Shown here: piece after piece, positions 2,507 through 19,120 of the stretch
How the letters are laid out: the number at the start of each line of letters is the position of its first letter
Position numbering within the stretch: the stretch's first letter is position 1
Virus record (IMG/VR): IMGVR_UViG_3300025070_000252
Coordinates: 1 to 22,761 of that record
DNA from: a virus
Length of the DNA: 22,761 nucleotides
Direction: 5' to 3' (one strand)
Translations under genes and position numbers: made by a program
Notes under the pieces: model-generated
Seen by the model: the letters and a program-made list of their open reading frames with translations, nothing else
Databases searched by the model: none
What the model was told of the DNA's origin: nothing

Positions 2507-2712
2507 AGCAAATAGACGATCTGAAGTTAGCTTACCGGCGCACCTTTAATACAGAGGATGGCGCAAAAGTTTTAAGTGATCTTAAATCCAGGTTTGGATA
2601 TGAGACAACCACGTTTTCGGACAATCCTTATGAAACTGCATTTAATGAAGGTCAGCGCGCAGCGGTGCTGCTGATTGTCCGTATGCTGACCGAAGAGAAG
2701 GAAAAACGATGA
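2503..2712 (+). CDS. Bbp19-like small head-region protein
   Basis: This 69-residue protein lies between portal and scaffold, where T7-like marine and Bordetella BPP-1-like phages often keep a similarly sized gene of the Bbp19 family. Visible family traits are AYRRTFNTEDG near the N-terminus (about 10-20), then V-L-x-D-L, and ETAFNEGQRAAVLLIVRML (about 44-62), probably a helix. It is soluble and has no membrane segment. Its biochemical role is not established; a minor head or connector function is inferred from location. Both junctions are four-base ATGA overlaps (2503-2506 and 2709-2712), so it sits in one coupled block with portal and scaffold. Confidence 0.85.
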   Translation: MKQIDDLKLAYRRTFNTEDGAKVLSDLKSRFGYETTTFSDNPYETAFNEGQRAAVLLIVRMLTEEKEKR

Positions 2713-3518
2713 GCGAAGAGGCAATCCAAGACACTGGATCTCAAGAAGTCGCAGGGGGTGCAGAAGCTGCGCCTGTAGGATTTTTGGACAGTTTACCAGA
2801 GGATCTGCGTGGCGAGCCGTCACTGCGGACGTTTACAGACCCAGCCAGCTTGGCGAAAAGCTATGTGAACGCGCAGCGCATGATTGGCGCTGATAAAATT
2901 GCAAAGCCTGGTAAGAGCTGGACAGATGACCAGTACAATGAGTTTTACAATTCTGTTGGCCGGCCAGAAAGTGCTGACGCTTATGAAATGAACTTAGGCG
3001 ATGGCATGAACGAAGATGCTATCTCTGGCCTAAAGCAGGCTATGTGGGAAGCTGGGTTGCAGCCTCGCCAGGTAGATCGCATTGCTAAGTTTATCAACGA
3101 GACAGGTGAGACATCTGCGGCAGAGGCTGAGAGTCGCGCAGAGAGCGCCGTATATGAGTCAAAGCAAGTTCTGCGGCAAGAGTTCGGCCAAGCGTATGAA
3201 CAGCGCATAGAAATGGCTCAGAAAGCCGCCAAGACATTGCTGGGCGAAAAGGGCATGGACATGTTCGGGGATGTGCAGCTTTCGGATGGCCGCATGCTTG
3301 GAGATCACCCAGAAGTTATAAAAATGTTTTCTGCCTTGGCAGAGCAGATTGGAGAAGACAATTTGGTTGGTGAACCAACTGAGCTTGTAATGACTCCAAA
3401 TGAGGCTCAGTCTCGAATTACAGAGATGACTAGACGAGATGGCCCATATTTTGATAAGATGCACCCAGAGCATAGCGCATACGTTGAAGAAGTGCTAAGG
3501 CTCAGAGAGTATCTATAG
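2709..3518 (+). CDS. Capsid scaffolding (assembly) protein, T7 gp9-like
   Basis: This is the scaffold that guides procapsid assembly and leaves before DNA fills the head. It has 269 residues and is acidic, with a disordered Glu/Gln/Ala-rich start and the conserved segment FLDSLPEDLRGEPSLRTF (25-42), followed by A-x-S-Y-V-N-A-Q-R-M-I-G (about 49-60). The middle is mostly helical, and the C-terminus is charged (YVEEVLRLREYL), as expected for a capsid-contacting tail. No protease domain is visible. The call combines this N-terminal pattern, typical of scaffolds in T7-like phages, with the position between portal and capsid. A 130-base non-coding leader follows, so this gene closes the first coupled block. 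Confidence 0.9.
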   Translation: MSEEAIQDTGSQEVAGGAEAAPVGFLDSLPEDLRGEPSLRTFTDPASLAKSYVNAQRMIGADKIAKPGKSWTDDQYNEFYNSVGRPESADAYEMNLGDGMNEDAISGLKQAMWEAGLQPRQVDRIAKFINETGETSAAEAESRAESAVYESKQVLRQEFGQAYEQRIEMAQKAAKTLLGEKGMDMFGDVQLSDGRMLGDHPEVIKMFSALAEQIGEDNLVGEPTELVMTPNEAQSRITEMTRRDGPYFDKMHPEHSAYVEEVLRLREYL

Positions 3519-3648: not shown

Positions 3649-4515
3649 ATGTCCACTCAAGTAACTACAGCTTTCGTCAATCAGTTTTCGTCAAATATCC
3701 AAATGCTGTCTCAGCAAATGGGTTCTCTGCTGCGCAACGCAGTGGATGTCGAAAGCGTAAACGGCGAAAAAGCATTTTTCGATCAAGTTGGAGCAGCCGC
3801 TGCTGTTCTTCGTACAACCCGTCACTCAGATACACCGTTGATTGATACGCCGCACTCGCGCCGTATGGTCACAATGTCTGACTACGAATATGCTGACCTG
3901 ATCGACGATCAGGACAAGGTTCGTATGCTTGTCGATCCAACGTCCACATATTCCCGTGCCGCCGCGGCTGCTATGGGTCGGGCTATGGATGACGTTATCA
4001 TCACTGCGGCTTTGGGCGACTCGCTCACAGGCAAAGATGGCTCGACAACTACAGCGTTTGACACAACAAACAATCAAATCGCTGCTGGCGCTGCTGGCTT
4101 AACATTGGCGAAATTGATTGAAGCCAAGGAAATCCTTGATGCTGGCAATGTTGATCCATCTATCCCACGTTACATTGCTTGTTCGCCTAAGCAGGTCACT
4201 GATCTGCTGAACAACACAACTGTAACTTCAAGCGATTACAACACTGTAAAAGCTTTGGCGATGGGTGAAATCAACACTTTTGTTGGCTTCAACTTCATTG
4301 TTTCAAACCGCTTGGGCGTTGACGGCTCTTCTGACCGCCGTTGCTTCGCATGGGCTGAAGACGGCATCAAAGTCGCTATGGGTAAAGAGCCTACAGCGCG
4401 CATTGATGAACGTGCCGACAAGTCTTACGCAACTCAAGTTTACTACTGCCAAACTCTTGGTGCGACCCGCATGGAAGAGTCTAAGGTTGTTGAGCTTTTG
4501 TGCGTAGAATCATAA
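3649..4515 (+). CDS. Major capsid protein
   Basis: This is the main shell protein. It has 288 residues, shorter than T7 gp10A (345) and near the size of capsid proteins in many other podoviruses. The N-terminus (V-x-x-F-V-N-Q-F-S-S-N-I-Q-M-L-S-Q-Q) resembles this capsid family, as does SDYEYADLIDDQDKVRML (about 77-94), which would correspond to the extended-loop and spine-helix region of an HK97-like fold. Later segments include A-A-A-A-M-G-R-A-M-D-D and GFNFIVSNRLG (about 217-227). The HK97 fold is inferred from family membership. It is the only gene here flanked on both sides by substantial non-coding DNA, with a strong ribosome binding site before it and a strong hairpin after it, consistent with a separately boosted transcript. 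The start is unambiguous. Confidence 0.95.
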   Translation: MSTQVTTAFVNQFSSNIQMLSQQMGSLLRNAVDVESVNGEKAFFDQVGAAAAVLRTTRHSDTPLIDTPHSRRMVTMSDYEYADLIDDQDKVRMLVDPTSTYSRAAAAAMGRAMDDVIITAALGDSLTGKDGSTTTAFDTTNNQIAAGAAGLTLAKLIEAKEILDAGNVDPSIPRYIACSPKQVTDLLNNTTVTSSDYNTVKALAMGEINTFVGFNFIVSNRLGVDGSSDRRCFAWAEDGIKVAMGKEPTARIDERADKSYATQVYYCQTLGATRMEESKVVELLCVES

Positions 4516-4563: not shown

Positions 4564-5169
4564 ATGACCAGTACGGTTGATATTGCAAACTACGCGCTGA
4601 ACAGCTTGGGTGCGAATAACATTTCAAGCTTTGAAGAAAACAGCAAGCCAGCGCGCCTAATCAACCAAAGGTTTGATAGTGTCCGCGACAGCGTGTTTCG
4701 TGCGCATCCTTGGAACTGTCTTTTGCGCCGCGCAGAGCTGGCAAAGGAAAGCGATTCCCCTCCTTTCGGATATGCAAATCAGTTTGCTTTGCCGACAAAT
4801 CCATACTGCCTTAGAGTTCTGGAGTTTAGCAACGGAAATTTGTCATACCCGCAGGATAACATGTTTAGCAACACTGGCGGCCCTGTGTTCGTTATTGAAG
4901 GGCGAAAGCTGCTTTCTGACGAAGGCGTTGCCAAAATAAAATATGTTGCTCGGGTCACAGACCCTCAAGAGTATGATGCCAATCTGATTGACACTTTGGC
5001 AGCGGCTATAGCGTTTGAGGTCAGTTACGCTATTACTGGCTCCAACACTGTCAAGCAAATGATGGCGGCAGAATACTCTGACAAATTAAAACAAGCCGCC
5101 TTTGTTGATGGCACTGAAGGCGCGCCGCAGCGCCTGGAAGCAAGCGAATTTATTGAGTCGAGGTTCTAA
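4564..5169 (+). CDS. Tail tubular protein A (T7 gp11 family)
   Basis: This protein forms the upper ring of the short tail, joining portal to nozzle and acting as a gatekeeper. It has 201 residues, against 196 in T7 gp11. Family signatures are V-D-I-A-N-Y-A-L-N-S-L-G (5-16), then V-R-D-S-V-F-R-A-H-P-W-N-C (40-52), where the R-A-H-P-W-N block is highly typical. Later come FALPTNPYCLRVLEF and a C-terminal helical stretch. GGAGAG at 4553-4558 supports ATG 4564. The gene directly follows the capsid terminator and ends in a TAATG overlap with tail tubular protein B (5167-5171), so the two tail-tube genes are coupled. Confidence 0.95.
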   Translation: MTSTVDIANYALNSLGANNISSFEENSKPARLINQRFDSVRDSVFRAHPWNCLLRRAELAKESDSPPFGYANQFALPTNPYCLRVLEFSNGNLSYPQDNMFSNTGGPVFVIEGRKLLSDEGVAKIKYVARVTDPQEYDANLIDTLAAAIAFEVSYAITGSNTVKQMMAAEYSDKLKQAAFVDGTEGAPQRLEASEFIESRF

Positions 5170-7178
5170 TGGCGCGATCAGCCCCAGCGATTAGCACGTT
5201 CACAGCAGGAGAAATCAGTCCGCGTCTTGAGGGGCGCGTTACGATTGAGAAGTACCGCGAGGGTCTGTCAGAGCTTACAAACATGATAGTGCAGCCTCAT
5301 GGTGGCGTTACGCGCCGCCCAGGCACAGAATATTTGGGTGAGGTGAAGGACAGCTCAAGCATTACTCGTTTGATACCTTTTGAGTTTAAAACAGCCGACA
5401 CATATGTTTTAGAGTTTGGCGATCAGTACATGCGGGTCTTCCGCAATGGTTTGCAGGTTCTTGTTGATAGTGCAAAGAGTGTCTCAAGAATCACAAAGTC
5501 TGATCCTGCCGCTTTCACAAGCTCCAACCACGGCTTCAGCGATGGCGATGAAGTTTACCTTTACAATGAAGGTGGTGGCATGACCGAGCTAGTTTCTCGA
5601 AACTATCTTATTGCAAATTCTGCAACTAACACGTTCACGCTGACTGACTTGTTTGGAAGGTATGTTGATGCGACAAGCTTTACCACCTACACCGGTTCAG
5701 GAGTTAGCGTTGACAAGCTGTTTGAGGTTGCAACGCCCTACACATCCGCGCAGGTAGGCGATGTGCGCTTTGCACAGTCTGCGGATGTTATGTACTTGGT
5801 GCATCCAAGCCACGCTGTCCGCACATTGTCTCGCACCGATCATAATGCTTGGACGTTTAATACTCCCACCATTAACGAAAACAACACGCCAGTTCTCACT
5901 AGCGTCGACAATTACCCTAGTGTTGTCACGTTTTTTGAACAGCGGTTGGTTTTTGCGGCAACTAACAACAATCCTCAGACGTTGTGGTTTTCTAAAAGTG
6001 CTGACTATTTAAATTTTCACACTGGCACTTCTGACGATGATGCTCTGATCTACACCATTGCGTCCAACAAAGTAAACGCAATCCGTTACCTGTCAGCTAC
6101 TCGAATACTTAACATTGGAACATCTGGCGGTGAGTATGTGCTGACAACAACTAATGGTGGGCCTGTTACGCCTACGCAGACAGTGATCCGCAAGTATTCT
6201 AACTATGGCTGTATTGACAGCGAAGTTGTCCAGGTTGCTGACGTTACCTTGTTTGCCCAGCGCGGAGCGCGCAAGGTCAGGGAGTTTCGTTATATAGGCG
6301 AGGTGGATGTTGCAGGTTATGCAGCCCCAGACATTACAATCCTGTCTGAGCATCTAACTGAAGGCGGCATAAGAGAGTTTGCTTATCAGCAAGAGCCTGA
6401 AAGTATTATATGGGCGCGCCGCACTGACGGCACTTTGCTTGGATTGACCTATCGGCGTGAAGAAGAAATTGTTGCGTGGCACAAACATATCATAGGCGGA
6501 GCGTTTGACGGTGGTCAGGCTAAGGTTGAAAGCATTATCACTTTGCCGACAGATAGCGGTGAGGATGAGCTTTACATGATTGTTAAGCGCACGATCAACG
6601 GCGTCACCAAGCAGTATGTTGAAGTGATGAAAACATTTGACTTTGGCAGCGACACGACTGCTGCCTTTTTTGTGGACAGCGGTTTGGTCTACTCAGGATC
6701 TGCAACCACAACTCTTTCTGGCCTGTATCACTTAGAGGGTGAAGATCTTTCGATACTAGCGAATGGCGCTACACATGCTGGAAAGACAGTTTCAGGCGGC
6801 GGTGTGACGTTAGATTTCTCCGCTACAACGGGCGCCGTTGGGTTTGGCTACACCAGTGAAATGCAAACACTGCGCTTAGAGTCTGGGTCTCAGGATGGCA
6901 CTTCCCAAGGCAAGCCAAAGCGCATACACGACATCACTGTGCGATTCCATGAAACGGTTGGTGCAGAGGTGGGCAGCGATTCGGAAAGTGCGGATAGAAT
7001 ATTTTTCCGCGACAGCTCTATGAATATGGATGAAGCTGTGCCATTATTCACAGGAGACAAGGAAATCGAGTTTGAAGGCGGTTTCGTTGACGGTGATCGC
7101 ATTTATGTGCGGCAATCACAGCCCCTGCCAATGACTGTTCTGGCGCTATATCCGCGCATGAACACATTTGATTTGTGA
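5169..7178 (+). CDS. Tail tubular protein B (T7 gp12-like nozzle)
   Basis: This forms the nozzle of the short tail, at the distal end of the DNA channel. It has 669 residues, somewhat shorter than T7 gp12 (794). Family marks are N-terminal: FTAGEISPRLEGR (11-23) and QPHGGVTRRPGT (42-53), followed by the I-P-F-E-F and Y-V-L-E-F-G-D-Q-Y-M-R-V strands (about 66-90). The rest is rich in beta structure, as expected for a nozzle, including F-F-E-Q-R-L-V-F-A-A-T-N near the middle. The start overlaps the tail tubular A stop. The following gene begins after a short gap containing its own ribosome binding site. Confidence 0.95.
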   Translation: MARSAPAISTFTAGEISPRLEGRVTIEKYREGLSELTNMIVQPHGGVTRRPGTEYLGEVKDSSSITRLIPFEFKTADTYVLEFGDQYMRVFRNGLQVLVDSAKSVSRITKSDPAAFTSSNHGFSDGDEVYLYNEGGGMTELVSRNYLIANSATNTFTLTDLFGRYVDATSFTTYTGSGVSVDKLFEVATPYTSAQVGDVRFAQSADVMYLVHPSHAVRTLSRTDHNAWTFNTPTINENNTPVLTSVDNYPSVVTFFEQRLVFAATNNNPQTLWFSKSADYLNFHTGTSDDDALIYTIASNKVNAIRYLSATRILNIGTSGGEYVLTTTNGGPVTPTQTVIRKYSNYGCIDSEVVQVADVTLFAQRGARKVREFRYIGEVDVAGYAAPDITILSEHLTEGGIREFAYQQEPESIIWARRTDGTLLGLTYRREEEIVAWHKHIIGGAFDGGQAKVESIITLPTDSGEDELYMIVKRTINGVTKQYVEVMKTFDFGSDTTAAFFVDSGLVYSGSATTTLSGLYHLEGEDLSILANGATHAGKTVSGGGVTLDFSATTGAVGFGYTSEMQTLRLESGSQDGTSQGKPKRIHDITVRFHETVGAEVGSDSESADRIFFRDSSMNMDEAVPLFTGDKEIEFEGGFVDGDRIYVRQSQPLPMTVLALYPRMNTFDL

Positions 7179-7189
7179 GGTGATTGAGT

Positions 7190-7705
7190 ATGTTTGAGAT
7201 CTTAACTCTTGGGGCAACAGTCCTTAGTGGGCTGAGTGCAAAAAGCTCTGCGAACAAAGCTGCTGCCGCTGCTGCAAGAGTTGGTGAGTTTAACGCTGGC
7301 CTAATTGAGCGCGACATTGACTTACTTGAAAAGCAACGTGAGATCATTAACCGCAATGCAGTTTTGCAAGAGCGGGTTGATCGGTTTCGTTTTAGGGAAG
7401 CTCAAGGCTCTGTTGTCGCTCAGTACAGCGGAGCTGGCATAGACATATCTCACGGCACTCCAATGCGAGTTTTGCGTCAGGCTGCGCGAGAGTTTGAGTA
7501 TGACCAAGCTATCAATGATTTTAATAACACGGTCACAAACATGCAGATCAACGATCAGCAAGAAAGTTCTAGGCTGAGTGCTGAACTGTCGCGCATGGAA
7601 GGTGGGGCGCAAGCTGCGGGGCTAAGAGCGCAGGGAACAACAAGTTTGATCCAGAGCTTTGGAACGGCAGGTCGGTTTGCTTCCTCTAGTGGGATGTTCA
7701 CATAA
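7190..7705 (+). CDS. Internal virion (ejection) protein, T7 gp14-like
   Basis: The product has 171 residues from ATG 7190, supported by AGGTGA at 7178-7183. An in-frame TTG at 7184 is less well spaced. It has the build of the small core protein ejected first in T7-like phages (gp14, 196 residues), which is thought to line a pore in the outer membrane. There is a short hydrophobic N-terminal segment (about 4-14), an Ala-rich helix (21-31), a long coiled-coil-like helix (33-70), the QYSGAGIDISHGTPM segment (79-93) and a Gly/Ser-rich tail. The Y-S-G-A-G-I-D-x-x-x-G-T-P block is typical of this group. It is the first of the internal proteins and lies directly after the nozzle, as in T7. The family call is good; pore formation is inferred by analogy. 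Confidence 0.82.
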   Translation: MFEILTLGATVLSGLSAKSSANKAAAAAARVGEFNAGLIERDIDLLEKQREIINRNAVLQERVDRFRFREAQGSVVAQYSGAGIDISHGTPMRVLRQAAREFEYDQAINDFNNTVTNMQINDQQESSRLSAELSRMEGGAQAAGLRAQGTTSLIQSFGTAGRFASSSGMFT

Positions 7706-9486
7706 TGAGAATACCAGTTTATAAATCACAGGGCCGCCCAACATCTGAAGCACCTGGCGCTCGTATCACAGCTAGGATGAATGCGCAGCCTTTCGTCCAG
7801 GCTGAATTGCAGAAAGGCGCCATTGCGACAGAGGTTGCAAACCAAGTTGGTGAATATGCCAACATGCGCTATAAGATGATTACCGAAACACAAAAGAACG
7901 AGGCGATCTTTTCAGCCAAAGAAGGCTTGATGGCTTTGTCTAGCCAGCTCGAAAAAGACAGGGATGTCGGAAACATTTTTGACGGTGAGCTTAAATATGC
8001 GCAGGGCGTCAAGAGCGTTTATGACCAAATGCGCGCTACTGTTGGCAAGAACAAATACGCGCTGCAAGATTTTGACAACAGCTTTCGCCAAATGGAAATA
8101 CCTATTAAGTTTAGGCTGCAAGAGGTTATTGACCTAAAGATTGAAAAGCGCAGGCAGGCTGCACTGAAGGCTCGGGAAGACCAGCAGGTTTCTATTTATT
8201 CCAATCCTTTCCTAGATATTACATCTGATGAGCTTGCTCTGGAGCAGTCTCAATTACAATCTATGGTTGAGCAAGCTGTTAGAAACGGCGGTGTGAACCC
8301 AGAAATTATGGGCAATGTTAGCCAAAGAGTTTTGTCAAAAGCTTTTAAGAACCTTATCCCAGCATACGCAGGAACTGACCTAAACAAAGCAATAGGTCTT
8401 TCATCGGTTTTGAGCCAAATTCAACAGGTGCGTAATGGTAAACTGGAAGCGGAAGCAATGGTTGGAATGTCCACCTTGCCGCCTCATGTTCTGAATATGC
8501 TAATGGCTGTGCCGGCTGAAGAGGCCAATGCAGTTGTGCAGGACACAATACAAATGGCCTCAACATTCTTTAGCGCCAAAGAAAAAATAGACGATGAGTA
8601 CGAAGAGGAAATAGGTAAAAACAACACACAAGCTTATAACCTTCTTGTTTCATTGGACAGCACAGACACTGTTTCTAAGTCCACATTGCAGCAAGTTTTA
8701 AATCCTGCCATCTTTGAAAGGCTTGTTGATAGTTACGAAGAAAGAGGCATTCCTTTCCAAAGTCTGTCAGGTTTAGAAGCTCAAGTGGTTTTACACGAAA
8801 GCTTAACTAGCCAAATGTGGGCCACCCCTGCGCAGCAAGAGGCGATGGAAGAAGCTATGTCAGTTTCTGAAGCACCTACGGCCTTTAGGCCTGCCGGCAA
8901 GGGTGATGCAGTTGTCTATAGTGAGCTTTATGGAACGGCAGAGAATGGCATGCTGACAGTTGCAGATCTTAATGCTAAAAGAAGCTCTTTGGACGTAGGC
9001 CAGTACAACGGCTTGCGGACAAAGATTGCAAATGAGGCGGATGAGGGGCTGGCTGTAGGTTCAAGGCTGCTTTCTCGGCATTTCCGTTATAATGCTCAAA
9101 TGGCAATTGGAAGAGATGACAGGCTTGCTCAGGCATCTAAAGCAGCTTTTGAAAATGCTGACTTTGCTTTAAGGGATGAGTTTAGCCGCAGAGAGTCTGA
9201 AGGTAACCCCATGACGCTAGCGGAAATTCGTCAGTTTGCTATGGAAAAAAGAGATGAGTTTGACGTTATTTACAGGGAAGAGTTGAGAGCTGAGTATTTA
9301 AATTATGTTTCTTCTGGTCAATCACAAATAATTGGCCTGACGATAGACATTGCAGATCCTTTAAATTCAATAGACGCTTTTTATGACGGCCTTGAGGCCA
9401 CCCAGCAAGAGCAACTTAGGGACAAAATTTTTGTTTTAAAATCACAAATCAAAGCAAGATACGCTAATCAAGGATTGTTTGACTAA
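7705..9486 (+). CDS. Internal virion protein, probable T7 gp15 analogue
   Basis: This 593-residue protein is almost entirely helical by composition, with many charged residues and few Gly, Pro or Cys and no membrane segment. The N-terminus is flexible and basic (MRIPVYKSQGRPTSEAPG), then long helices begin (A-N-Q-V-G-E-Y-A-N-M-R-Y-K at about 46-58). T7 gp15 (747 residues) is a similarly helical tube-forming ejection protein in the same place, after gp14. I see no specific motif proving homology, so the call rests on order, size and helical character. It begins and ends in TAATG overlaps (7703-7707 and 9484-9488), placing it in a coupled run with its neighbours. Confidence 0.72.
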   Translation: MRIPVYKSQGRPTSEAPGARITARMNAQPFVQAELQKGAIATEVANQVGEYANMRYKMITETQKNEAIFSAKEGLMALSSQLEKDRDVGNIFDGELKYAQGVKSVYDQMRATVGKNKYALQDFDNSFRQMEIPIKFRLQEVIDLKIEKRRQAALKAREDQQVSIYSNPFLDITSDELALEQSQLQSMVEQAVRNGGVNPEIMGNVSQRVLSKAFKNLIPAYAGTDLNKAIGLSSVLSQIQQVRNGKLEAEAMVGMSTLPPHVLNMLMAVPAEEANAVVQDTIQMASTFFSAKEKIDDEYEEEIGKNNTQAYNLLVSLDSTDTVSKSTLQQVLNPAIFERLVDSYEERGIPFQSLSGLEAQVVLHESLTSQMWATPAQQEAMEEAMSVSEAPTAFRPAGKGDAVVYSELYGTAENGMLTVADLNAKRSSLDVGQYNGLRTKIANEADEGLAVGSRLLSRHFRYNAQMAIGRDDRLAQASKAAFENADFALRDEFSRRESEGNPMTLAEIRQFAMEKRDEFDVIYREELRAEYLNYVSSGQSQIIGLTIDIADPLNSIDAFYDGLEATQQEQLRDKIFVLKSQIKARYANQGLFD

Positions 9487-12068
9487 TGGCAGATTTATTG
9501 GGCAACGACACCGACTATGAAATGGACAAATACCTTGAGGCCAATCTTGTTGTTGAGGCTGGTATTAACCCTGCTATTGAAAAGAACAAGAAGAGCGTCT
9601 TTAACACCGAGACCAATACTCACGACATCCTTCTGCCCATGTCCCAAGGCGGGTACATAAAGATTGGTGAAGAGGGCGAAACGGTAGACCCTCCAAGATC
9701 CATACTGATCGAAGGCATGGAGTTTGGCCCTGAGACACCTGAGTTTCAACGCTACTACCCAGCGCCGCAACCAGAGGTTATGGAGACAGCTCCTGCTTCT
9801 CTTGTGGCGCCGACGACTGAATCAGCCCCCATAGAGGGCGCTATTTCGTTTGCCAACGAGCGCAAAGAAGCCACCGGCGCCATGCCAACTATGGAAGACT
9901 TTGACGCTGCCGGCTACACGCCTGACGTTGTGGAAGCCGCCGGCCTTATGGGGCCGCAGGAAGACTTAACTTTATCTCCAGATGAAATAGCGCGGAAGCT
10001 AGCAAGCGGGGAGCCTTTTCTTGTTTTTGGCGAGGGAGACCCTACGATTAGAGAAGCAGGGACTAGGTTTGTTGAAGACCTTGCCGTGCGACTTGCGACT
10101 GAGGGAATGCGAGCAGAGCTGTTAGAGGAGCAAGGAGTTAGCCCCAGTGTCATTGACGAGGCAGCGAATATAAGAGCTTCTGTAGAAGACGAAACTGATC
10201 CTAGTGTCATACAAGAGGCTGAACAAAGGGCAAGGGCCTTAATAGAGCAAGATGCGGCGCAGCGTAATGCTCAGGTAAATTTCCGCACTATTGACGAAAC
10301 AATTAGAGCGGCAACTGGAGCTATGAGAAGCTCTGCAAGCGTGTACTCTAATGCGTTATTTGGCACGGGAGAGACAAACCCTTTACAGGTAGGCGTTGCA
10401 GATTTCGCCACTTTCGGAGCTTTGGACATTCAAGAAGGTTATCGAATGTTTAATCAGGGCAATCAAGGCGCTCCTATTAGCCCTCTTTACGCGACAACGG
10501 GTTTAGCACTTGACGCCGCATCTTCCGTTGCGTCAGCGTTTGGATCTGATGATGGAGCCAGTGGAAGCTTCCAAAGATTGATGGGGCTGGGTCTTATGAC
10601 AGCAGGCTTGGCCGAGGCTACTGTTGTTGGCAAGCCAATTGCAGCTCTTATGAAAAAAGGCTTTAAAGTGTTAGAGCCTTCTTTAATCAAGGCAGGCGCA
10701 GAGGCCGAGCAGCGCATAGCGCAAGAAGGCTCAACAATGTTTAGCAATCCTGTTGGGCCTATAGTAGATCGGGGTCTTGCTGCGGCTGGTAAGCTGGCTG
10801 CGCCAGATGTGACTGATGGATTGCCTGGGCGAATTTCAACCAGACTTCCTACGGCGAAAGCGTCAACAGAAGACCCAATGGCAGGGGATCTTATTGTTGG
10901 CCTAGAAGAAATGAGGGCTGATCCAAAACTATATGAGTTTAATGTAAACATCACTAAAGATTACCCCAACATGAAAGTTGTTAAGGGTGAAGGAGTTGAC
11001 GAAACATCTGAACGCTTTATAGCTCATGTGACAGACAACTTGCTTTACCTTCACGATCAAGTCCCTGAAGCGACTAGGGTGAGGAGCCAGAAGTGGTACG
11101 ATGGGGCTAGAGCGATTACTGATCGCTGGTCAAGCGAGTACAACGTGCCTGACACATCTATTGCTGGCGCGCTTGCAGCCTTGTCGCCCCAAAAAGATTG
11201 GTATCAAAACGTCAGTTTGGCGCAGCGAGTTCTTGATGTTTCCGTAAAACAGAGAGACTTTAAATTTGCTGATGACATGGAGCAAACATTCAGATCGTTG
11301 CCATCTTTAAATAAACCAAAATATGAGCCTATGTTGGAAGCCATAAAAGGCAAATCTTACGCAGAAATTGTTGACGAAGATCCCGCAGTCCAATCAGGAT
11401 TACGCGCTTTATTTGTTAGGCTTTACGATCAAACTTACAATTCACCAGATTACAAAGTTGTCGGCCCAGAAGGCGATTTCTTGCAAACAGCCACTAATGC
11501 TGATGGGCGTCCTAGCAAGGCAGCTTGGGGGTCGCTAAACGAGATTGGCAAAGCTGTTGCTTCGATTGACGTTAACGGGGATGTAAGCACGATCTCTAGG
11601 TTAATGGGTGAACGGCATAAGGTAAGAAACTTTTATAACAATATATATGATCCCAACTCTCCGTTTGGTGATGTAACAATTGACACCCATGCTGTGGCTG
11701 CTGGCCTTTTGCGCCCATTGTCAGGAAACTCTCTTGAAGTTGACCACAACTTTAAAAACATGAGCGTCAAAGGAAGAGGGACAACAAAAGGGTCTAGCAA
11801 AACAGGCGTTTCTGGAAACTACGGACTATATGCGGAAGCGTATAGACGGGCAGCGGCTGAACGTGGTATCCTGCCACGGCAGATGCAATCAATAACTTGG
11901 GAAGCGGTACGCGGATTATTTACAGATAAGTTTAAGCAAAGCGCAAAAAATGTCTCTGATGTTAATGCAATCTGGCAAAGATACAAAGACGGCGAAATTG
12001 ATTTGAACGAAACGAGGAGGTCGGTAGATGAACGAGCAGGCGGAGTTAACCCCCCAACTTGGGAATGA
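9486..12068 (+). CDS. Large virion protein with an endonuclease III-like (HhH-GPD) region
   Basis: The product has 860 residues. By position, after the gp14- and gp15-like genes, it is probably an internal virion protein. Residues 1-300 are acidic and look flexible. Residues 330-460 are Gly/Ala-rich with weakly hydrophobic helices. From about 480 a globular region contains ALAALSPQKDWYQN (562-575), later ERHKVRNFYNNIY with K712, then VTIDTHAVAAGLL with D733. Endonuclease III-family DNA glycosylases have LLSAQ (Gln41), a Lys in the helix-hairpin-helix (Lys120) and VDTH with catalytic Asp138, in the same order. The spacing is 21 residues here against 18 for Lys to Asp, with an insertion before that. 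I see neither the G-V-G hairpin nor the iron-sulphur cysteines. A second conserved segment, GLYAEAYRRAAAERG, precedes the C-terminus. The virion role and the fold are both inferred. No lytic transglycosylase motif was found. Confidence 0.7.
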   Translation: MADLLGNDTDYEMDKYLEANLVVEAGINPAIEKNKKSVFNTETNTHDILLPMSQGGYIKIGEEGETVDPPRSILIEGMEFGPETPEFQRYYPAPQPEVMETAPASLVAPTTESAPIEGAISFANERKEATGAMPTMEDFDAAGYTPDVVEAAGLMGPQEDLTLSPDEIARKLASGEPFLVFGEGDPTIREAGTRFVEDLAVRLATEGMRAELLEEQGVSPSVIDEAANIRASVEDETDPSVIQEAEQRARALIEQDAAQRNAQVNFRTIDETIRAATGAMRSSASVYSNALFGTGETNPLQVGVADFATFGALDIQEGYRMFNQGNQGAPISPLYATTGLALDAASSVASAFGSDDGASGSFQRLMGLGLMTAGLAEATVVGKPIAALMKKGFKVLEPSLIKAGAEAEQRIAQEGSTMFSNPVGPIVDRGLAAAGKLAAPDVTDGLPGRISTRLPTAKASTEDPMAGDLIVGLEEMRADPKLYEFNVNITKDYPNMKVVKGEGVDETSERFIAHVTDNLLYLHDQVPEATRVRSQKWYDGARAITDRWSSEYNVPDTSIAGALAALSPQKDWYQNVSLAQRVLDVSVKQRDFKFADDMEQTFRSLPSLNKPKYEPMLEAIKGKSYAEIVDEDPAVQSGLRALFVRLYDQTYNSPDYKVVGPEGDFLQTATNADGRPSKAAWGSLNEIGKAVASIDVNGDVSTISRLMGERHKVRNFYNNIYDPNSPFGDVTIDTHAVAAGLLRPLSGNSLEVDHNFKNMSVKGRGTTKGSSKTGVSGNYGLYAEAYRRAAAERGILPRQMQSITWEAVRGLFTDKFKQSAKNVSDVNAIWQRYKDGEIDLNETRRSVDERAGGVNPPTWE
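12014..12020 (+). promoter_or_regulatory. Shine-Dalgarno site deciding a nested start
   Basis: GAGGAGG, seven bases before ATG 12028, lies inside the coding end of the 860-residue protein. Its strength argues that the short gene starting within that frame is real. Confidence 0.75.
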
Positions 12069-12215: not shown

Positions 12216-15200
12216 ATGGCATTTGATCCAAACCAGGTAGCACAAGAGCAAGAGGCCAAGCAGCGCATCACTGCGGTTGGCCAGCCAACTGAGTTTGCCC
12301 AAGGCCCAGAGCAAGAGGGTGTGCAGGTAGCAGGCGTTGGCAAGCTGTTTGACCTTCTTAACAAGCTTGACCCAAGTGTGCGGCCTGATCCCCCTAAGCC
12401 CAAGCCTGTTGGCCCTGAAGCCGCGCGTGTGATGACGCCTGATGAGATCGCGGCAACGCCGGCGTTTGATCCGTCTGTTGCTCCTAGAATGCCTACACCG
12501 CAAGAGGTGGGGCTGGTTCCAAATCAAGGCGCCTTTTCGGAAAGCGCAACCAAGCGCGCTCTTGCCGGCCAGGTTCTTAGCCCTGAAGGTGTGGCAAAGT
12601 TTGAAGAGCGTGGCCTCAAGGCGCCTGGTATTGGTCAAGAGGCGCCGACAGATGTGCTGCAAGACGCGCAAACTGCTTTGGCTGATGACGCTGCCGAGGC
12701 AGAGCTAGCCGCGACTAATGTTAGGAAAGACGCGCAAAAAGCTCTTAACGCAGAGGTAAGAGGTTTTAAGCCTGAAACAGGCACTGCTTCTGATGAGGTT
12801 GCTCAGGCAGTTCTAAGTCGCCTTGATGTAAAGAAGAACAACATTAAATCCTTGCAAGACGGCGGTGATTTTAACTTTGACTACATCGACACGGCTGATG
12901 ATGTTAAGGCAATCATCACAGCAATTGGCGACAACTTTAAAGGCGAAACAGCCACTATAACCAGAGGCACTATATCCAATAAGGAAACAATAAAAGTTTC
13001 CAAGGAGCTAGTTGCTGATGAGATTGGCTTAACGCGCAGCCTGCTTTCTCGCAGAATAGGCGAAGGAGGCATGACGGCAGAGATGTTTGTTGCATCTCGT
13101 GAGTTGCTAATAAGAAGCGCAACAAAGCTTGAGGAGTTAGCAAAGCTGATTAAGAGTGGCCAAGGAACAAATGCCGACAGACTTCGCTTTCGCAGGCAGC
13201 TTGCCATTCACAGCGGCATTCAATTGCAGCTCAAAGGCGCTCAGACAGAAGCAGCTCGGGCATTGCAGTCATTTCAGATCCGAGTTGATGGAGAGCTAGA
13301 CGCCACGCGCTTTGGCGAAGAGGCCACAAGGCTTCTTTCTGAAAGCGGATCTGCCGGCGTCACAGACGCATTAGCTGTTGCTCTGTTAAAGGCTGCAAAA
13401 GAAAATCATGTGCAGGGAGTTAACCAAGTCGCCAATGTTGGCAAGTATGCCAAAACAAAGCAGATGGTGCATGAGGCTTATTTGGCTGGCCTGTTGTCAT
13501 CACCGGCCACGCAAATGAAGAACATAATTGGCACTAGTGCTTTTATGCTGTTTCAGCTCCCAACTGAAGTTATGGCCGGCATGTATGGCAGTGTAATTCG
13601 ATCTGCGCGAAAGCCTTTTGGAGAAGTGTACGCGCCTATTAGTGAAGATCAAATTTACATGGAAGATGCCCTTCTTCGCTTAAAGGGGTGGTCGGACGCT
13701 TGGGGCGACGCAATGAAAGCGGCGTCAATTGCTTGGCGTACAGAAATGCCTTCTGGAGCAAGCAAGTTAGATATTGAGAATTACGCAGCCACTTCTGGGT
13801 CTGACAGTAGTTTTTTTGGTAGATCTCTTGATGAATTGGGCAAGCGGATGCGGATACCATTCCGCCTATTGCTTTCGGCCGATGAGTTCACCAAAACCAT
13901 TTCCCAACGCGGCGAGTTTTACACATCTATAAACAAGCGTTATCAACACGCATTGCGGAAAGGAATGACCGAGCAAGAGGCTTTGGATGAAGCCGGCATG
14001 ATGATGCTTGATCCAGGCTCTGTTGCAGATGATTTAAATTACAAAGCAAAGTTTGACACGCTGCAATCCGACTTAGGTGTTATGGGTGAATATGCTGGAA
14101 AGTTTCAGCGCACTTTAGCAGGCCGGTTTATCATGCCATTCGTTACAGCTCCAACGAATGCGTTGTTGCGCACAATGGAATATACACCATTTAGCAAAAC
14201 ATCCTTCGATGCACTTGGCGCTAACGGGCCGCGCGCGCAACAACTTGCCCTCGGCAGATTAACTGTTGGTGGCGCAGTTATAATGACAACACAAAAATAC
14301 GCACACGATGGCCGCATTACCGGCGGCATGCCAAGCGATCAAAAGTCTCGGGACGCCCTGCCGCCTGGGTGGCAACCTTATAGTTTCGTTTTAAAAGGAA
14401 AAGGTTTCCCAGAGGATATGCCGTTGTATGATGCTTTCGGCGCTCCAAATGGCCCTTTAATGTATGTAAGCTTCCAAGGGTTTGAGCCTGTTGGCGGGTT
14501 ACTCGCAATTACGGCTGACACAGTTCAACGCATGAACCTGACAAGTGATCCTGAGCTGCAACAAAATCTTGGAGCAGCAGCGATGCTTGCCACTGCTAAT
14601 TATTATAAAGAGCTGCCAATGCTGCAAGGAATTGCTGATATGGTTGCTTATATGGACGGCTTTGACCCAGCAAAAATTTCACGCAGCTACGCAGAGAGCG
14701 CAAGCCCAATTGGCGTTCCAAATCCACTAAGCTCATTGCAGCGCATGTTTGCGCGGCTTGCTGATCCGACAAGGGTCAAGCCTCGGGAGGATATTGAGTA
14801 TTACACAATTGAAGATGTAAAAAAGATTGTCATTGACGAAGATGGAAACGAGTCTTTTGCATACCCACTTGCAGACGGGACGCCAAACTATGCTATTGTC
14901 GGTACTCCCAAAGGAGACTTAGGGACAAATTTTCGTGCGTATCTTACAGAGGTCAGCGCGCTACAATCCAAGGACAGCTTCATTCGGGATGAGCGCGACT
15001 TAAACGCTGTTGTATATGATACACTAGGCAACGCAAAAGGATCGGATGAGTTTAGCTTTGCCGCCAATCCAGGCGCCGCGTTGTTTAGTAATATATCAGG
15101 CCTTCGCTTAAAGCGCGGCGATGAGCTGGAAAATTACGAAAAAGAGCTGATCCGATTGCAGCGCATGACAAACAAATGGCCTTTGACCAACCCACAGAAA

Positions 15201-15500
15201 ATGGGTCAAATCAAACTTAGCTACGGCATGCAGTCTGACTTGGTAAATCTGGCGAAAAATGAAATCCGCATTAACACCCCAGGCTTTGGGTCGCTGGATT
15301 TTAGGCAAACTATTATGGCAGTAACTGGATCTGACCAATATAAAGGTATCCCAGATAAAGCCAAAGTAACGATGCTTCGTTCAATAAACCAAAAATTTAT
15401 AGAAGCAGGGTTCTTGGCGTTGCTTGAAAACCCAGAATATGCAAATATGCGGCAAGCATACGAGCAGGTCGAACAGTTAAAAAACGAGGGTCGTAGATAA
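12216..15500 (+). CDS. Very large internal virion (ejection) protein candidate
   Basis: This 1094-residue protein occupies the place of T7 gp16 (1318 residues), just before the tail fibre. The N-terminal 200 residues are Pro/Ala/Gln-rich and probably flexible. A helical region follows. YLAGLLSSPATQMKNIIG (422-439) precedes a hydrophobic stretch (about 440-461). PFRLLLSADEFTKTISQR (548-565) then leads into a helical, hydrophobic-patterned half. The 'LLSSPxTxxxNxxG' plus 'ADEFxKxxxxR' pair recurs in very large internal proteins of other tailed phages, where such proteins are thought to be ejected and to interact with the cell membrane. No soluble lytic transglycosylase or lysozyme motif is visible, unlike T7 gp16. 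The ATG at 12216 lies five bases after the previous stop, and the gene ends in TAATG with the fibre gene. The ejection role is inferred. Confidence 0.75.
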   Translation: MAFDPNQVAQEQEAKQRITAVGQPTEFAQGPEQEGVQVAGVGKLFDLLNKLDPSVRPDPPKPKPVGPEAARVMTPDEIAATPAFDPSVAPRMPTPQEVGLVPNQGAFSESATKRALAGQVLSPEGVAKFEERGLKAPGIGQEAPTDVLQDAQTALADDAAEAELAATNVRKDAQKALNAEVRGFKPETGTASDEVAQAVLSRLDVKKNNIKSLQDGGDFNFDYIDTADDVKAIITAIGDNFKGETATITRGTISNKETIKVSKELVADEIGLTRSLLSRRIGEGGMTAEMFVASRELLIRSATKLEELAKLIKSGQGTNADRLRFRRQLAIHSGIQLQLKGAQTEAARALQSFQIRVDGELDATRFGEEATRLLSESGSAGVTDALAVALLKAAKENHVQGVNQVANVGKYAKTKQMVHEAYLAGLLSSPATQMKNIIGTSAFMLFQLPTEVMAGMYGSVIRSARKPFGEVYAPISEDQIYMEDALLRLKGWSDAWGDAMKAASIAWRTEMPSGASKLDIENYAATSGSDSSFFGRSLDELGKRMRIPFRLLLSADEFTKTISQRGEFYTSINKRYQHALRKGMTEQEALDEAGMMMLDPGSVADDLNYKAKFDTLQSDLGVMGEYAGKFQRTLAGRFIMPFVTAPTNALLRTMEYTPFSKTSFDALGANGPRAQQLALGRLTVGGAVIMTTQKYAHDGRITGGMPSDQKSRDALPPGWQPYSFVLKGKGFPEDMPLYDAFGAPNGPLMYVSFQGFEPVGGLLAITADTVQRMNLTSDPELQQNLGAAAMLATANYYKELPMLQGIADMVAYMDGFDPAKISRSYAESASPIGVPNPLSSLQRMFARLADPTRVKPREDIEYYTIEDVKKIVIDEDGNESFAYPLADGTPNYAIVGTPKGDLGTNFRAYLTEVSALQSKDSFIRDERDLNAVVYDTLGNAKGSDEFSFAANPGAALFSNISGLRLKRGDELENYEKELIRLQRMTNKWPLTNPQKMGQIKLSYGMQSDLVNLAKNEIRINTPGFGSLDFRQTIMAVTGSDQYKGIPDKAKVTMLRSINQKFIEAGFLALLENPEYANMRQAYEQVEQLKNEGRR

Positions 15501-18500
15501 TGACAGTATCGAGCAGCACAAACCGAGCAAGTTATAGCGGCAATGGATCGCTTGCAACTTTTGCGTATGGCTTCAAGGTTTTCGACCGGGACGATCTGAC
15601 GGTTATCCTTCGAGCCAGTGATGGCACAGAGACTGTCCAGACGATTACAACCGATTACACTGTGACGGGCGTTGGCGATGTCGGGGGCGGCAACGTAGTG
15701 TTTGGCACTGCACCGGCGTCTGGAGTTACTGTTGTTATCATTCGGGAACAGCCCCTCACCCAAGGGCTTGACCTGGTTCCCAATGATCCGTTCCCTGCGC
15801 AAAGCTTGGAAGAGAGCTTGGACAAGCTTACATTTGTTGACCAAAGATTAAGTGAGTCTATAGATCGCGCGCTGACGTTCAGTGTCGGTGACTTTGTTAC
15901 TGACGCGACACTGCCTTTTAAAGAGCAGCGTGTTGGTAAGGTTTTGGCATTTAACGAGACAACCGGCGACCCAGAGGCTGGGCCTAGTATTGCTGATACT
16001 CAGTCTGTTGCAAATGCCTCTGCTGACATTAAGACTTTAGCGGAGATCCAAGATGGTACGGTTGCCACTGATGCTATTACAAACGTAAATACAATACGCA
16101 CGGATGTAACTACAGTATCCGGCATGTCTTCTAATGTAACAACGGTTGCTGGCAATACTACAAACATCAATACTGTTGCAGGAAACAATGCCAACATTAC
16201 AACTGTTGCTGGCATAGATAGCGATATAACTACTGTTTCGGGTATATCTTCCGATGTGACCACCGTTGCTGCTGACGGTACAGACATTGGCGTTGTTGCA
16301 GGTATATCTTCTGATGTGACTACTGTTTCCGGCGTATCGACAGAGATTGGTCGCTTGGGTACAGCTGATGCTGTATCTGATATGAACGCACTAAGCCCTG
16401 CGGCAGTTATCGCTGATATGGATTCTCTTGCTGATAATGTTAGTGCGATTACTGCTGTATCAGATGATATTGGCTATGTTATTGCTGTTGCTATAAACGC
16501 AGGAAACATTAATGACGTTGCCGGAAATGAAGCTGACATTACAACTGTTGCTAGTGATATATCTAACGTCAATACGGTTTCGACTAATATTACGTCCGTA
16601 AACACAAACGCTACAAACATTACTGACATTCAAAACGCTTCAACAAATGCTGCTACGGCTACAACTCAAGCAGGAATTGCAACAACACAGGCTGGTATAG
16701 CAACGACTAAAGCAAGTGAAGCATCTGTTTCTGGGGTTAATGCCGCCTCTTCTGCTACTGCCTCTCAGGCTGCTCGTGACACGGCTGAAGATTACAAACT
16801 AGCGGCTGAAGCCGCCGCCACCTCTGCAACCAACACTGCGTCTGCGCTTGCTGGTTTTGACCTCACAGCTATAGCCAAAGACATCAGCGACACAGCCGTA
16901 GACGTATTCGTGTACGACACCCGCAAGGACAGCGATGGCGGTGCATGGCGTAAGCGCACACAGAATACAAGCTGGTACAATGAGACACTGAACACTAGCA
17001 CCCGTGGCTCTCGTAAGGAGTTCCCTGCGGTTGCTGTTATTGTGGCTGAGACTAATCAGGTTACGATCTACGATGGTGATGATCCTGATTTGCCTATGTG
17101 GATGGTGTTTAATATAAACGGAGAAAACAACTTCCTACTAACAGGCGTGAGTTCTATTACGTCCATCAACGGTAAAATTGCACTAGGAAACACAGGGAGT
17201 TATGCTCGCCTAATGTTAGTGGATTTTCTCGCAGAGGAAAGTTACTGGATAACATCAAACAGCGTTACGGTAAAACAACAAGGTATTGCAAGCCGTAATA
17301 GCACAACTGTCAATGTAAACTCTTCTAACTATGGAACTATTGTTAATTCCGCAGTCAACGATGTAGCCATGACCGTTCTGCCCAACGCCCCGATTGATGC
17401 TGCTACAGGATTGCCTGTGCCGACTATTGCGGTGGCGACGAATGGTGGCGTGAGTGTTATTAAGGATGATGGGACTGTTGTTGATATTACAAACACGTTT
17501 GCTAATTATAACCGCTGGTCTTCTGTAAAAATTACAACCGATAACAAGTTAATAATAGATGCAAGTAATGTTAACCTTACTAATAATATCACACACGTTG
17601 TTGATATGCCTACAGCAGATGTATCGGCACAGCTAGTAAACGCTAGATTTACTGCCCTAAACGGAAGATATTATCACTCTGATAGTAGTATCCCCAATAT
17701 ATCACTGGGGGGTACGTTTGAACCCTCAATAGCACCTATGCAAAAAGACCAATTTGCAATGGGCGGTGACAATGCTAGCTACGGACTTGATATAATAGCG
17801 GAAGCACCTGAGACAGTAAGTGGTATTAGCAGCAGTGCGATGATCGCTTACATTAAATCAGACTACAACACAGGCTGGATGAACGGCGACATCAAACTAG
17901 CCACCTTGTCCGACACCGATGATACTGACGTTACTGGCAGTGAGTTGGTGACGAATGGTACGTTTGCTAGTAATACTACTGGGTGGAGTGCTACTAATTC
18001 GGGCATTTTATCCGTAGACTCCGCTAGACTAAAAGTTACCAACGGAATTGCGAGTGCTGGTCGGGCGCACCAAGCTATTACAGTCGAAGTAGGAAAAACG
18101 TACACGATTAGCGTGGAAGGTTTGCTAGGAACATCTGGGCCAAATATTAGAATTGGTAATGCTGCAAATGGTGCAGATTATGGAAGTTCAACAGCGGCTG
18201 GGTTAAATTCGTTCACCGTTATTCCTACGCAAACAACTATATACATAACGCTAAAACCTAACAGCAACACAAACGGAAATACTGCTCTATTCGACAACGT
18301 CTCAGTACGCCTAGCCGAAGAAGACCGCAGTGTGAACGGCAACGGTCTACAAGTGTTCGGCACTGTGACCAAAACCCCTGTGGCTACTGGTGCGGATTTG
18401 GTGGCGTATAGTGGGTTTAGTAGCAGTAACTATCTTGAGCAGCCTTATAACTCTGACTTGGACTTTGGGACGGGTGATTGCTGTGGCATGGCTTGGTTCA

Positions 18501-19120
18501 AACATGAAGCAACTGCTCTGACACGAACAATTTTTGATAGAGATAGTGCAACGACAGACAAAGCTATTAGCTTTGAGATAGCCGCTACAAATAGTTACCT
18601 TCAAATATCCTTGGATGATGGTACTGATCGTGTTTATGTCAACTCAGGTTCAGCCGTAGATGATGATACTTGGCATTTTGGTACATGGGTGCGCCGAGGA
18701 AGCACATTGGAACTATATGTGGACGGCGTCCTTAAAAATACAGGGGATGCTTCATCTGTAGACAGTATTTCAAGCACAGATGCGAGACTAAGAGTTGGTG
18801 ATTACAGAAGGTCTGGGTTGTCTTTACCTTTTGGCGGCTCAATAGCCCTACTCCGCATCTCAGCCACAGCCCCATCCCCAGAACAGATCGCTAAAATCTA
18901 CAACGACGAGAAGGTGCTATTCCAAGAGAATGCCCAAGCAACGCTATACGGCTCGTCTGATGCGGTAACAGCTTTGGCCTACGACGATAGCACAGAGTTG
19001 CTTCATGTCGGTACAAGCGCAGGACGTTCAGTCTTCCAAGGATTACGACGAGTAGACAACACAACCGATGCAGTCGGTGCAGCAATCAGTGCCTCTAATG
19101 GCCTAGTAGCAGAGGATTGA
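15500..19120 (+). CDS. Long modular tail fibre with T7-type N-terminus and lectin-like domains
   Basis: This is the receptor-binding tail fibre, 1206 residues. Residues 1-135 match the T7 gp17 N-terminal attachment domain (F-A-Y-G-F-K-V-F, D-Y-T-V, G-V-T-V-V-I-I-R-E-Q-P-L-T-Q, and the L-E-x-S-L-D-K-L helix). Residues 202-291 and 336-378 are 10-residue repeats of the type N/D-I-T-T-V-A-G-x-x-x. An Ala/Thr-rich coiled-coil-like stretch (380-450) follows, then a Trp-rich module near 470-540. Residues about 813-937 (GSELVTNGTFASNTTGW, ending in F-D-N-V-S-V-R) look like a CBM_4_9-type jelly-roll carbohydrate-binding module. Residues about 968-1142 (D-D-D-T-W-H-F, L-E-L-Y-V-D-G) look like a LamG/concanavalin lectin fold. 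A C-terminal 64-residue tail contains HVGTSAGRSVFQGLRRV. Domain calls are from motif recognition only. Confidence 0.92.
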   Translation: MTVSSSTNRASYSGNGSLATFAYGFKVFDRDDLTVILRASDGTETVQTITTDYTVTGVGDVGGGNVVFGTAPASGVTVVIIREQPLTQGLDLVPNDPFPAQSLEESLDKLTFVDQRLSESIDRALTFSVGDFVTDATLPFKEQRVGKVLAFNETTGDPEAGPSIADTQSVANASADIKTLAEIQDGTVATDAITNVNTIRTDVTTVSGMSSNVTTVAGNTTNINTVAGNNANITTVAGIDSDITTVSGISSDVTTVAADGTDIGVVAGISSDVTTVSGVSTEIGRLGTADAVSDMNALSPAAVIADMDSLADNVSAITAVSDDIGYVIAVAINAGNINDVAGNEADITTVASDISNVNTVSTNITSVNTNATNITDIQNASTNAATATTQAGIATTQAGIATTKASEASVSGVNAASSATASQAARDTAEDYKLAAEAAATSATNTASALAGFDLTAIAKDISDTAVDVFVYDTRKDSDGGAWRKRTQNTSWYNETLNTSTRGSRKEFPAVAVIVAETNQVTIYDGDDPDLPMWMVFNINGENNFLLTGVSSITSINGKIALGNTGSYARLMLVDFLAEESYWITSNSVTVKQQGIASRNSTTVNVNSSNYGTIVNSAVNDVAMTVLPNAPIDAATGLPVPTIAVATNGGVSVIKDDGTVVDITNTFANYNRWSSVKITTDNKLIIDASNVNLTNNITHVVDMPTADVSAQLVNARFTALNGRYYHSDSSIPNISLGGTFEPSIAPMQKDQFAMGGDNASYGLDIIAEAPETVSGISSSAMIAYIKSDYNTGWMNGDIKLATLSDTDDTDVTGSELVTNGTFASNTTGWSATNSGILSVDSARLKVTNGIASAGRAHQAITVEVGKTYTISVEGLLGTSGPNIRIGNAANGADYGSSTAAGLNSFTVIPTQTTIYITLKPNSNTNGNTALFDNVSVRLAEEDRSVNGNGLQVFGTVTKTPVATGADLVAYSGFSSSNYLEQPYNSDLDFGTGDCCGMAWFKHEATALTRTIFDRDSATTDKAISFEIAATNSYLQISLDDGTDRVYVNSGSAVDDDTWHFGTWVRRGSTLELYVDGVLKNTGDASSVDSISSTDARLRVGDYRRSGLSLPFGGSIALLRISATAPSPEQIAKIYNDEKVLFQENAQATLYGSSDAVTALAYDDSTELLHVGTSAGRSVFQGLRRVDNTTDAVGAAISASNGLVAED
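16103..16372 (+). repeat. Nine 30-base tandem coding repeats in the tail fibre
   Basis: Nine consecutive 10-codon units (residues 202-291) follow D/N-V/I-T-T-V-S/A-G-x-x-S/T. Units include NVTTVAGNTT, NITTVAGIDS and DVTTVSGVST; the last unit is degenerate. At DNA level 16241-16260 and 16301-16320 differ by one base of 20. The region probably forms an extended trimeric shaft. Confidence 0.85.
16505..16633 (+). repeat. Second block of 10-codon fibre repeats
   Basis: About four further units (residues 336-378), such as NINDVAGNEA, DITTVASDIS and NVNTVSTNIT, keep the same 10-residue period after a 45-residue non-repeat interruption. They are more degenerate than the first block and lead into the Ala/Thr-rich coiled-coil region. 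Confidence 0.7.

Follow-up and report, generated by a model that had tools for sequence, protein, structure and literature searches.

An 860-amino-acid (aa) protein encoded among the internal virion protein genes of a short-tailed phage ends in a domain of about 410 residues whose family membership, conserved residues, and predicted fold place it with the HhH-GPD DNA glycosylases. As the best explanation we favor, with moderate confidence, a catalytically intact OGG/AGOG-type domain that is packaged in the particle, ejected from it, and removes a damaged or modified purine from DNA as infection begins. The most likely substrate within that explanation is 8-oxoguanine or another modified guanine, which is also its least certain step. 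Computation supports the family, the predicted fold, the conservation, the gene slot, and the polyvalent architecture of relatives; what we infer is that the protein is packaged and ejected, that its domain is active on such a substrate, and that it serves to repair incoming phage DNA. A first-pass annotation had likened this region to endonuclease III (EndoIII). The superfamily and the order of the LSxQ, lysine, and aspartate elements held, but the domain resembles the OGG/AGOG 8-oxoguanine glycosylases more, because a Q-x-x-x-W motif appears at the position where OGG enzymes hold oxidized guanine.

A DUF7178 domain among internal virion proteins

The stretch of DNA analyzed here (the window) is a 22.8-kb phage fragment from an IMG/VR record, and its genes are arranged as in T7-like, short-tailed phages (Table 1). 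The gene for the 860-aa protein occupies a slot among internal virion protein genes, between the tail-tube and fiber genes, that is kept in relatives; the fiber genes come after the gene for the 1,094-aa internal virion protein. For the genes at 7705 and 9486, the first base of the start codon is the last stop base of the preceding gene. Pfam and PHROG searches gave no significant family for the 593-aa protein in the gp15 slot. Farther downstream, the 1,206-aa fiber protein (15500-19120) has a concanavalin/laminin-G domain near its C terminus (residues 987-1131; E = 1e-16) that could serve as a glycan-binding tip.

The C-terminal domain of the 860-aa protein matches Pfam DUF7178 (PF23802) with 92.5 bits (E = 4.3e-26), where the curated cutoff is 27 bits, and PHROG 3842 (E = 2e-27), both of which are annotated as of unknown function; a search against NCBIfam returned no family. 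All 22 full-length relatives match DUF7178. The limits first given to the region, 10941-11760, are too short at both ends, as homology runs from about residue 449 (10830) to the stop codon (12068) and includes the conserved C-terminal QSITW motif that those limits omit. The possibility that residues 445-485 (TRLPTAK...) form a cleavage or export motif of their own was rejected: in the loci examined, apart from one contig that ended too early to judge, the segment was seen only joined to the domain, and we take it to be the domain's N-terminal part. Residues 1-448 gave no Pfam or PHROG match, and similarity to relatives outside the close clade begins only at residue 365-450. Among the relatives compared, the N-terminal half diverges and the DUF7178 domain stays conserved. 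The virion form of the domain also carries two insertions, of about 90 and about 35 residues, which could alter its substrate.

Relatives of the virion form are numerous in IMG/VR, where two scans confirmed 381 and at least 590 related stretches, and only 4 were found in a collection of cultured phages. One cultured phage that carries the domain is Roseobacter phage CRP-738, in its gp40. A search of 84,980 bacterial and archaeal species genomes with two patterns gave 1 DUF7178 match. The family is nearly confined to viruses. The lone relative in a bacterial assembly, a Candidatus Izimaplasma metagenome-assembled genome (MAG) (L253:6001-6498), probably comes from a prophage or from a viral contig that was sorted into the MAG.

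Table 1. Features of the window, with coordinates and basis of assignment
Feature	Position	Strand	Basis
Head-tail connector	905-2506		
Protease/scaffold-like protein	2709-3518		
Major head protein	3649-4515		
Tail tube	4564-5169		
Nozzle	5169-7178		
T7 gp14-like internal virion protein	7184..7705	+	phrog_418 internal virion protein, E 2.3e-7
593-aa protein, gp15 slot	7705..9486	+	Syntenic in relative L045
860-aa virion protein with DUF7178 domain	9486..12068	+	ORF; same slot in relatives L045, L065, L099
N-terminal region, residues 1-448	9486..10829	+	Variable among relatives
Expanded DUF7178/HhH-GPD-like domain, residues 449-860	10830..12065	+	PF23802, PHROG 3842, AF2 model
S567-P568-Q569	11184..11192	+	EndoIII S39-A-Q41 position in blind profile alignment
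Clade-specific insertion, residues ~585-680	11238..11525	+	Alignment; missing from standalone relatives
Helix-hairpin-helix, residues 700-721	11583..11648	+	AF2 model helices, local 215-221 and 228-236
K712, predicted catalytic/Schiff-base lysine	11619..11621	+	Invariant; hhalign onto EndoIII K120
D733, predicted catalytic aspartate of GPD region	11682..11684	+	Invariant; hhalign onto EndoIII D138
Q801-S-I-T-W805, predicted base-binding pair	11886..11900	+	Invariant; pocket residues after PMC3397491
1,094-aa internal virion protein, gp16 slot	12216..15500	+	phrog_6651 internal virion protein, E 9e-22

Conserved residues of the predicted active site and pocket

S567-P-Q569, K712, and D733 stand in the 860-aa open reading frame where the first-pass annotation had placed them (residues 562-575 are ALAALSPQKDWYQN and residues 705-740 are RLMGERHKVRNFYNNIYDPNSPFGDVTIDTHAVAAG), and the K712-D733 gap is indeed 21 versus 18 in EndoIII. 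When the protein was shuffled 20,000 times, the ordered pattern [LM]S.Q ... K ... [VI]DTH, with the lysine and aspartate 15-25 apart, turned up 3 times; this pattern was picked after the fact, so that figure is only a guide, and conservation is the better evidence for the motif. S567, P568, Q569, W572, N575, K712, D733, H735, Q801, and W805 are invariant in 22 of 22 aligned full-length relatives. The residues W, Y, A, S, P, W, N, K, F, V, D, Q, and W never vary in a set of 14 diverse members; S567, P568, W572, N575, K712, D733, Q801, and W805 (window numbering) are among them, and the lysine, the aspartate, and the C-terminal Q-x-x-x-W are conserved in essentially all of the roughly 160 domains counted. 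Within the motif proposed at first pass, K712 and D733 are thus invariant in homologs and S-P-Q in the virion clade, but standalone members can have N, R, T, or S in place of the glutamine. Of the two refuting outcomes named at first pass, an unrelated fold and loss of the motif residues in homologs, neither was borne out. A blind profile alignment with a weak score set LSPR onto the LSAQ of EndoIII.

In the AF2 model, K712 is at the N-terminal end of the second helix in the helix-hairpin-helix and D733 immediately precedes the next helix after that pair (local 249-256), an arrangement shared with HhH-GPD enzymes, and Q801 and W805 fall within the C-terminal helix (local 312-326). The residue two after the aspartate is histidine in most members (H735 in the window) and tryptophan in some; the hOGG1 counterpart, His270, contacts the lesion phosphate (PMC3397491). 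Oxidized guanine is held by Gln315/Phe319 in OGG1, by Asp194/Trp198 in OGG2, and by Asp218/Trp222 in AGOG (PMC3397491). Sequence position and predicted secondary structure suggest that Q-x-x-x-W occupies this base-holding position, and they point to a guanine-type pocket. Lysine and aspartate are 21 apart in the window domain and 17-18 apart in standalone members, compared with 18 in EndoIII, 19 in hOGG1 (K249/D268), and 32 in AGOG (K140/D172).

Two absences from the window protein were noted at first pass. The hairpin glycines are visible in relatives, as GKGPKT in DroogsArmy gp83 and as an invariant G-x-K in the free form of the domain. The window domain has no cysteine at all and thus lacks the C-terminal Cys4 [4Fe-4S] site of EndoIII. 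From the two absences together, it had been suggested that the domain may be degenerate or purely structural. OGG and AGOG enzymes have no Fe-S cluster, so the missing cysteines are expected and are no sign of degeneracy.

Predicted fold

Confident AF2 models were obtained for the window domain (residues 486-860; pLDDT 91, pTM 0.87) and for a standalone DUF7178 member (pLDDT 94, pTM 0.89). For the standalone model, the best 50 rows in VIA-align were all HhH-GPD DNA glycosylases, led by SsOgg (3fhg; Z = 12.9 over 172 residues at 3.5 Å) and including MjOgg-DNA (3knt; 12.8), Tm1821 (12.4), EndoIII-DNA (1orp; 10.8), MagIII (9.8), AGOG (9.6), and OGG1 (about 9). Native EndoIII (2abk), the comparison proposed at first pass, scored 9.4. 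VIA-align warns that helical models can reach a Z of up to 13 by chance; a list made up of a single superfamily over the full length speaks against chance here. In Foldseek, the first 8 rows were AGOG and Ogg2 (probability 0.98-1.00), with E values of only 0.016-0.27.

The window-domain model gave weaker scores. Its first 11 VIA-align rows were all AGOG, DUF2419, or PUGT, members of the HhH glycosylase-like superfamily (Z = 7.7 to 3.9), and every row after the 11th had a Z of 3.3 or less. The best solved match is tied between a nucleotide enzyme, DUF2419 (7.7), and a DNA enzyme, AGOG (7.6), in the range of 7-8 where VIA-align warns of chance; PUGT, which is phage PaMx11 gp46, scored 4.3, and the Foldseek E value of 0.13 was not significant. 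Because these scores are weak, the HhH-GPD assignment of the window domain rests chiefly on the standalone relatives. The models thus agree with the HhH-GPD fold claimed by the first-pass annotation, for the DUF7178 family as a whole and more weakly for the window domain itself.

Sequence comparisons reached known enzymes poorly. Blind alignment with EndoIII by hhalign was weak (E = 0.014-0.085, with a probability of 3% at E = 0.014), with the lysine and aspartate aligned on K120 and D138 each time. A Pfam search of the 860-aa protein gave no PF00730 match, and phmmer and hmmsearch runs against PDB sequences, started from the window domain, from a standalone relative, and from both profiles, gave no relevant chain. 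The OGG family PF22175, searched for bacterial OGG2 in 295 genomes, gave weak subthreshold matches only.

Standalone and polyvalent relatives

DUF7178 also occurs as a free protein of about 190-200 residues, for which we found 183 records in mycobacteriophages, other actinophages, cyanophages, roseophages, and others; the proteins of S-CRES3 and DroogsArmy are examples of this form, and several are labeled by their depositors as glycosylase, N-glycosylase, N-glycosylase/DNA lyase, or endonuclease. The virion-form and standalone profiles align with an hhalign probability of 100%, but one of the two profiles (A4) includes some virion-form rows, so the independent link between the forms is that both match the same Pfam model. 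In T7-like phages, free copies lie near the left, early end of the genome (CRP-1, 1.1 kb; S-CBP2, 2.1 kb; ICBM2, 1.2 kb; P12053L, 0.7 kb), and in phage 9515-10a the free copy is upstream of the RNA polymerase gene. The virion slot and these early-end copies are therefore two arrangements that would both place the activity at the very start of infection. Clustering of gene neighborhoods at 40 standalone loci, in which we sought a repair or modification partner, gave no neighbor common to more than 7 loci.

A DUF7178-like protein of Tunturiibacter phage Tunturi_3 (gp111; PP885686.1, L136:2950-3546) is labeled "portal protein," a label that looks wrong; it lies directly 3' of a gene labeled ATP-dependent DNA ligase, which would suit base excision. 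In two cases only, DroogsArmy (L129:3350-3820) and Microbacterium phage Cece (L131:1772-2233), the gene for a SprT-like protease lies within a few genes of standalone DUF7178; proteases of this kind are linked to DNA-protein crosslink repair. Elsewhere, a protein starting MRVLSLFDGMGCTRIALSRAG (L205:1377-2456) adjoins a standalone DUF7178 gene and looks like a C5-cytosine methyltransferase; similar open reading frames occur in 3 of the 40 loci.

In the large proteins of other phages, the domain sits at differing positions in chains of 543 to more than 3,000 residues. It is accompanied by ART-PolyVal and inorganic pyrophosphatase (InPase) in relative L058, by LPD22 and ART-PolyVal in L072, by a methyltransferase in L049 and LS06-2018-MD07, and by InPase and 2'-5' RNA ligase in Rctr197k. 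SLT domains are also among the partners, and two relatives match a DarB-like antirestriction PHROG. Such partners and varied position are typical of polyvalent proteins, a group presumed to accompany the DNA into the cell (PMC5512222). One example, a giant protein of more than 3,000 aa in Rhodobacteraceae phage LS06-2018-MD07 (L132:9229-18383), is labeled "methyltransferase" and lies in the internal-virion-protein slot; in it, DUF7178 is joined by a methyltransferase domain and a weak match to ART-PolyVal. In a tree with some long branches and uncertain deep order, the expanded virion form is one clade (support 100/98) and Rctr197k stands apart, grouped with the free forms, a pattern suggesting that the domain was recruited into large phage proteins at least twice.

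Proposed mechanism and alternative explanations

Gene position and the architecture of relatives fit a protein that is probably carried inside the particle and injected. The 860-aa protein would be packaged with the other internal virion proteins and ejected with the genome. Its domain would then bind DNA and flip a modified purine out between W805 and other pocket residues, with Q801 and W805 holding the flipped base and D733 driving cleavage of the N-glycosidic bond. K712 could be the amine nucleophile or AP-lyase residue, forming a Schiff base and nicking the strand, or could serve only to position the base, and the choice between these roles is debated for the lysine of hOGG1 (PMC3397491). 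The most ordinary purpose would be to repair oxidized guanine in the phage genome ahead of expression of its first genes; alternative purposes would be attack on modified host or rival DNA or the removal of a defense mark.

We considered whether the HhH-GPD scaffold is kept but acts on a nucleotide, a nucleoside, or a modified phage base instead of damaged DNA, as the queuosine-monophosphate glycosylase DUF2419 and the phage thymidine-hypermodification enzyme PUGT do. The presence of both among the best matches of the window model (Z = 7.7 and 4.3) speaks for such a role, as do the large insertions found only in the virion form, the frequency of nucleotide-targeting enzymes in polyvalent proteins (PMC5512222, PMC7824862), and a pI of 6.3, which shows that the window domain is not basic and which we counted against the glycosylase reading. 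The standalone family, however, fits DNA glycosylases far better, the virion clade retains S-P-Q, K, D-x-H, and Q-x-x-x-W, and no thymidine-modification gene was recognized among the ten proteins scanned in two close-relative contigs, both incomplete; we regard this role as unlikely. We likewise doubt that the ejected domain is a weapon or counterdefense that excises modified bases from host, prophage, or defense-marked DNA and leaves crippling abasic sites. Counterdefense and host takeover are a known theme of polyvalent proteins (PMC5512222), bacteria themselves turn glycosylases on phage DNA (PMC11078745), and the ART, InPase, and methyltransferase partners, the DarB-like matches, and the early-end standalone copies would suit such a use; but no defense partner or immunity gene was recognized, a general oxidized-base enzyme would hit phage DNA too, and the Q/W pair resembles a repair-pocket pair.

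That the domain is degenerate and purely structural, in the particle or the ejection channel, seems very improbable: its catalytic and pocket residues never vary, in contrast to the freely diverging N-terminal half, its position varies among proteins of such different lengths, and enzyme-sized standalone relatives exist. In favor of a structural part is that the domain belongs to a virion protein, and some virion enzymes are architectural.

Novelty and implications

The first-pass annotation knew of no described function for such a domain in a virion protein. We too found no paper on the virion form, but the domain is the annotated DUF7178 and its standalone relatives are labeled glycosylase, so the domain itself is already on record. 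Our searches of open-access papers found none on DUF7178 and, among those on phage or virion-borne glycosylases, none describing a virion-fused DUF7178. Phage HhH-GPD enzymes, standalone DUF7178 proteins called glycosylase, and injected polyvalent proteins are already known; not found in the literature searched, and in that sense new, are the placement of DUF7178 within the OGG-like part of HhH-GPD, the conserved pocket, and the recurring fusion to virion proteins.

A widespread Pfam family of unknown function can thereby be given a predicted fold and a probable active site, together with a class of substrates open to testing. With an injected glycosylase-like domain, the virus may start mending or editing DNA on cell entry, and if the packaged OGG/AGOG-type enzyme is real, base excision joins the kinds of enzyme that phages appear to inject. 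This is timely, as glycosylases are now emerging as bacterial antiphage weapons. The favored explanation predicts that activity needs K712 and D733 and that loss of the domain from the particle changes how well it withstands oxidation or UV, or how well the phage grows on hosts whose DNA is modified. More speculatively, a large, mostly uncultured group of aquatic phages may inject an OGG-like glycosylase that edits DNA before phage gene expression, with modified guanines (oxidized or 7-deazaguanine-type marks) being excised from incoming, host, or rival DNA. Were this so, the particle would deliver a base-excision step, and polyvalent effectors would include a glycosylase class.

Comparison with known systems

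The archaeal and bacterial 8-oxoguanine DNA glycosylases OGG2 and AGOG are the closest solved folds and share with DUF7178 the Lys/Asp pair, the absence of an Fe-S cluster, and a tryptophan in the C-terminal helix with a polar residue four before it. At that polar position DUF7178 has glutamine, as in OGG1, and not aspartate. The virion form adds two insertions and an N-terminal virion region, and sequence similarity to these enzymes is undetectable. The domain is not classed as OGG2 because the strictly conserved C-terminal lysine of OGG2 is missing: standalone members end in RRIHGV/A and the window protein in PPTWE. EndoIII (Nth) shares the HhH-GPD fold, LSxQ, D-T-H, and, with actinophage members, a GxGxK-like hairpin (GKGPKT). 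Its structural score is below that of OGG2, and the window domain is not classed as EndoIII because it has no Fe-S site. DUF2419 and PaMx11 gp46 (PUGT) have a similar HhH glycosylase-like scaffold and rank near the top for the window model, but their substrates are a nucleotide and a hypermodified thymidine, and neither is in the best 50 VIA-align rows for the standalone model.

Among phage proteins, standalone DUF7178/PHROG 3842 members such as Mycobacterium phage DroogsArmy gp83, labeled "glycosylase," have the same Pfam family and invariant residues, but they are free proteins of about 190 aa from early or accessory regions, with neither the virion fusion nor the insertions. The main text of the paper on polyvalent proteins by Iyer et al. 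(2017; PMC5512222) mentions no glycosylase. Polyvalent proteins and the ejected virion proteins of N4 and T7 share with the window protein an enzymatic domain within a large protein encoded among virion genes. The window protein differs from polyvalent proteins in having one recognizable domain plus an N-terminal half without assignment, whereas its relatives share with them the ART-PolyVal, InPase, and LPD22 domains.
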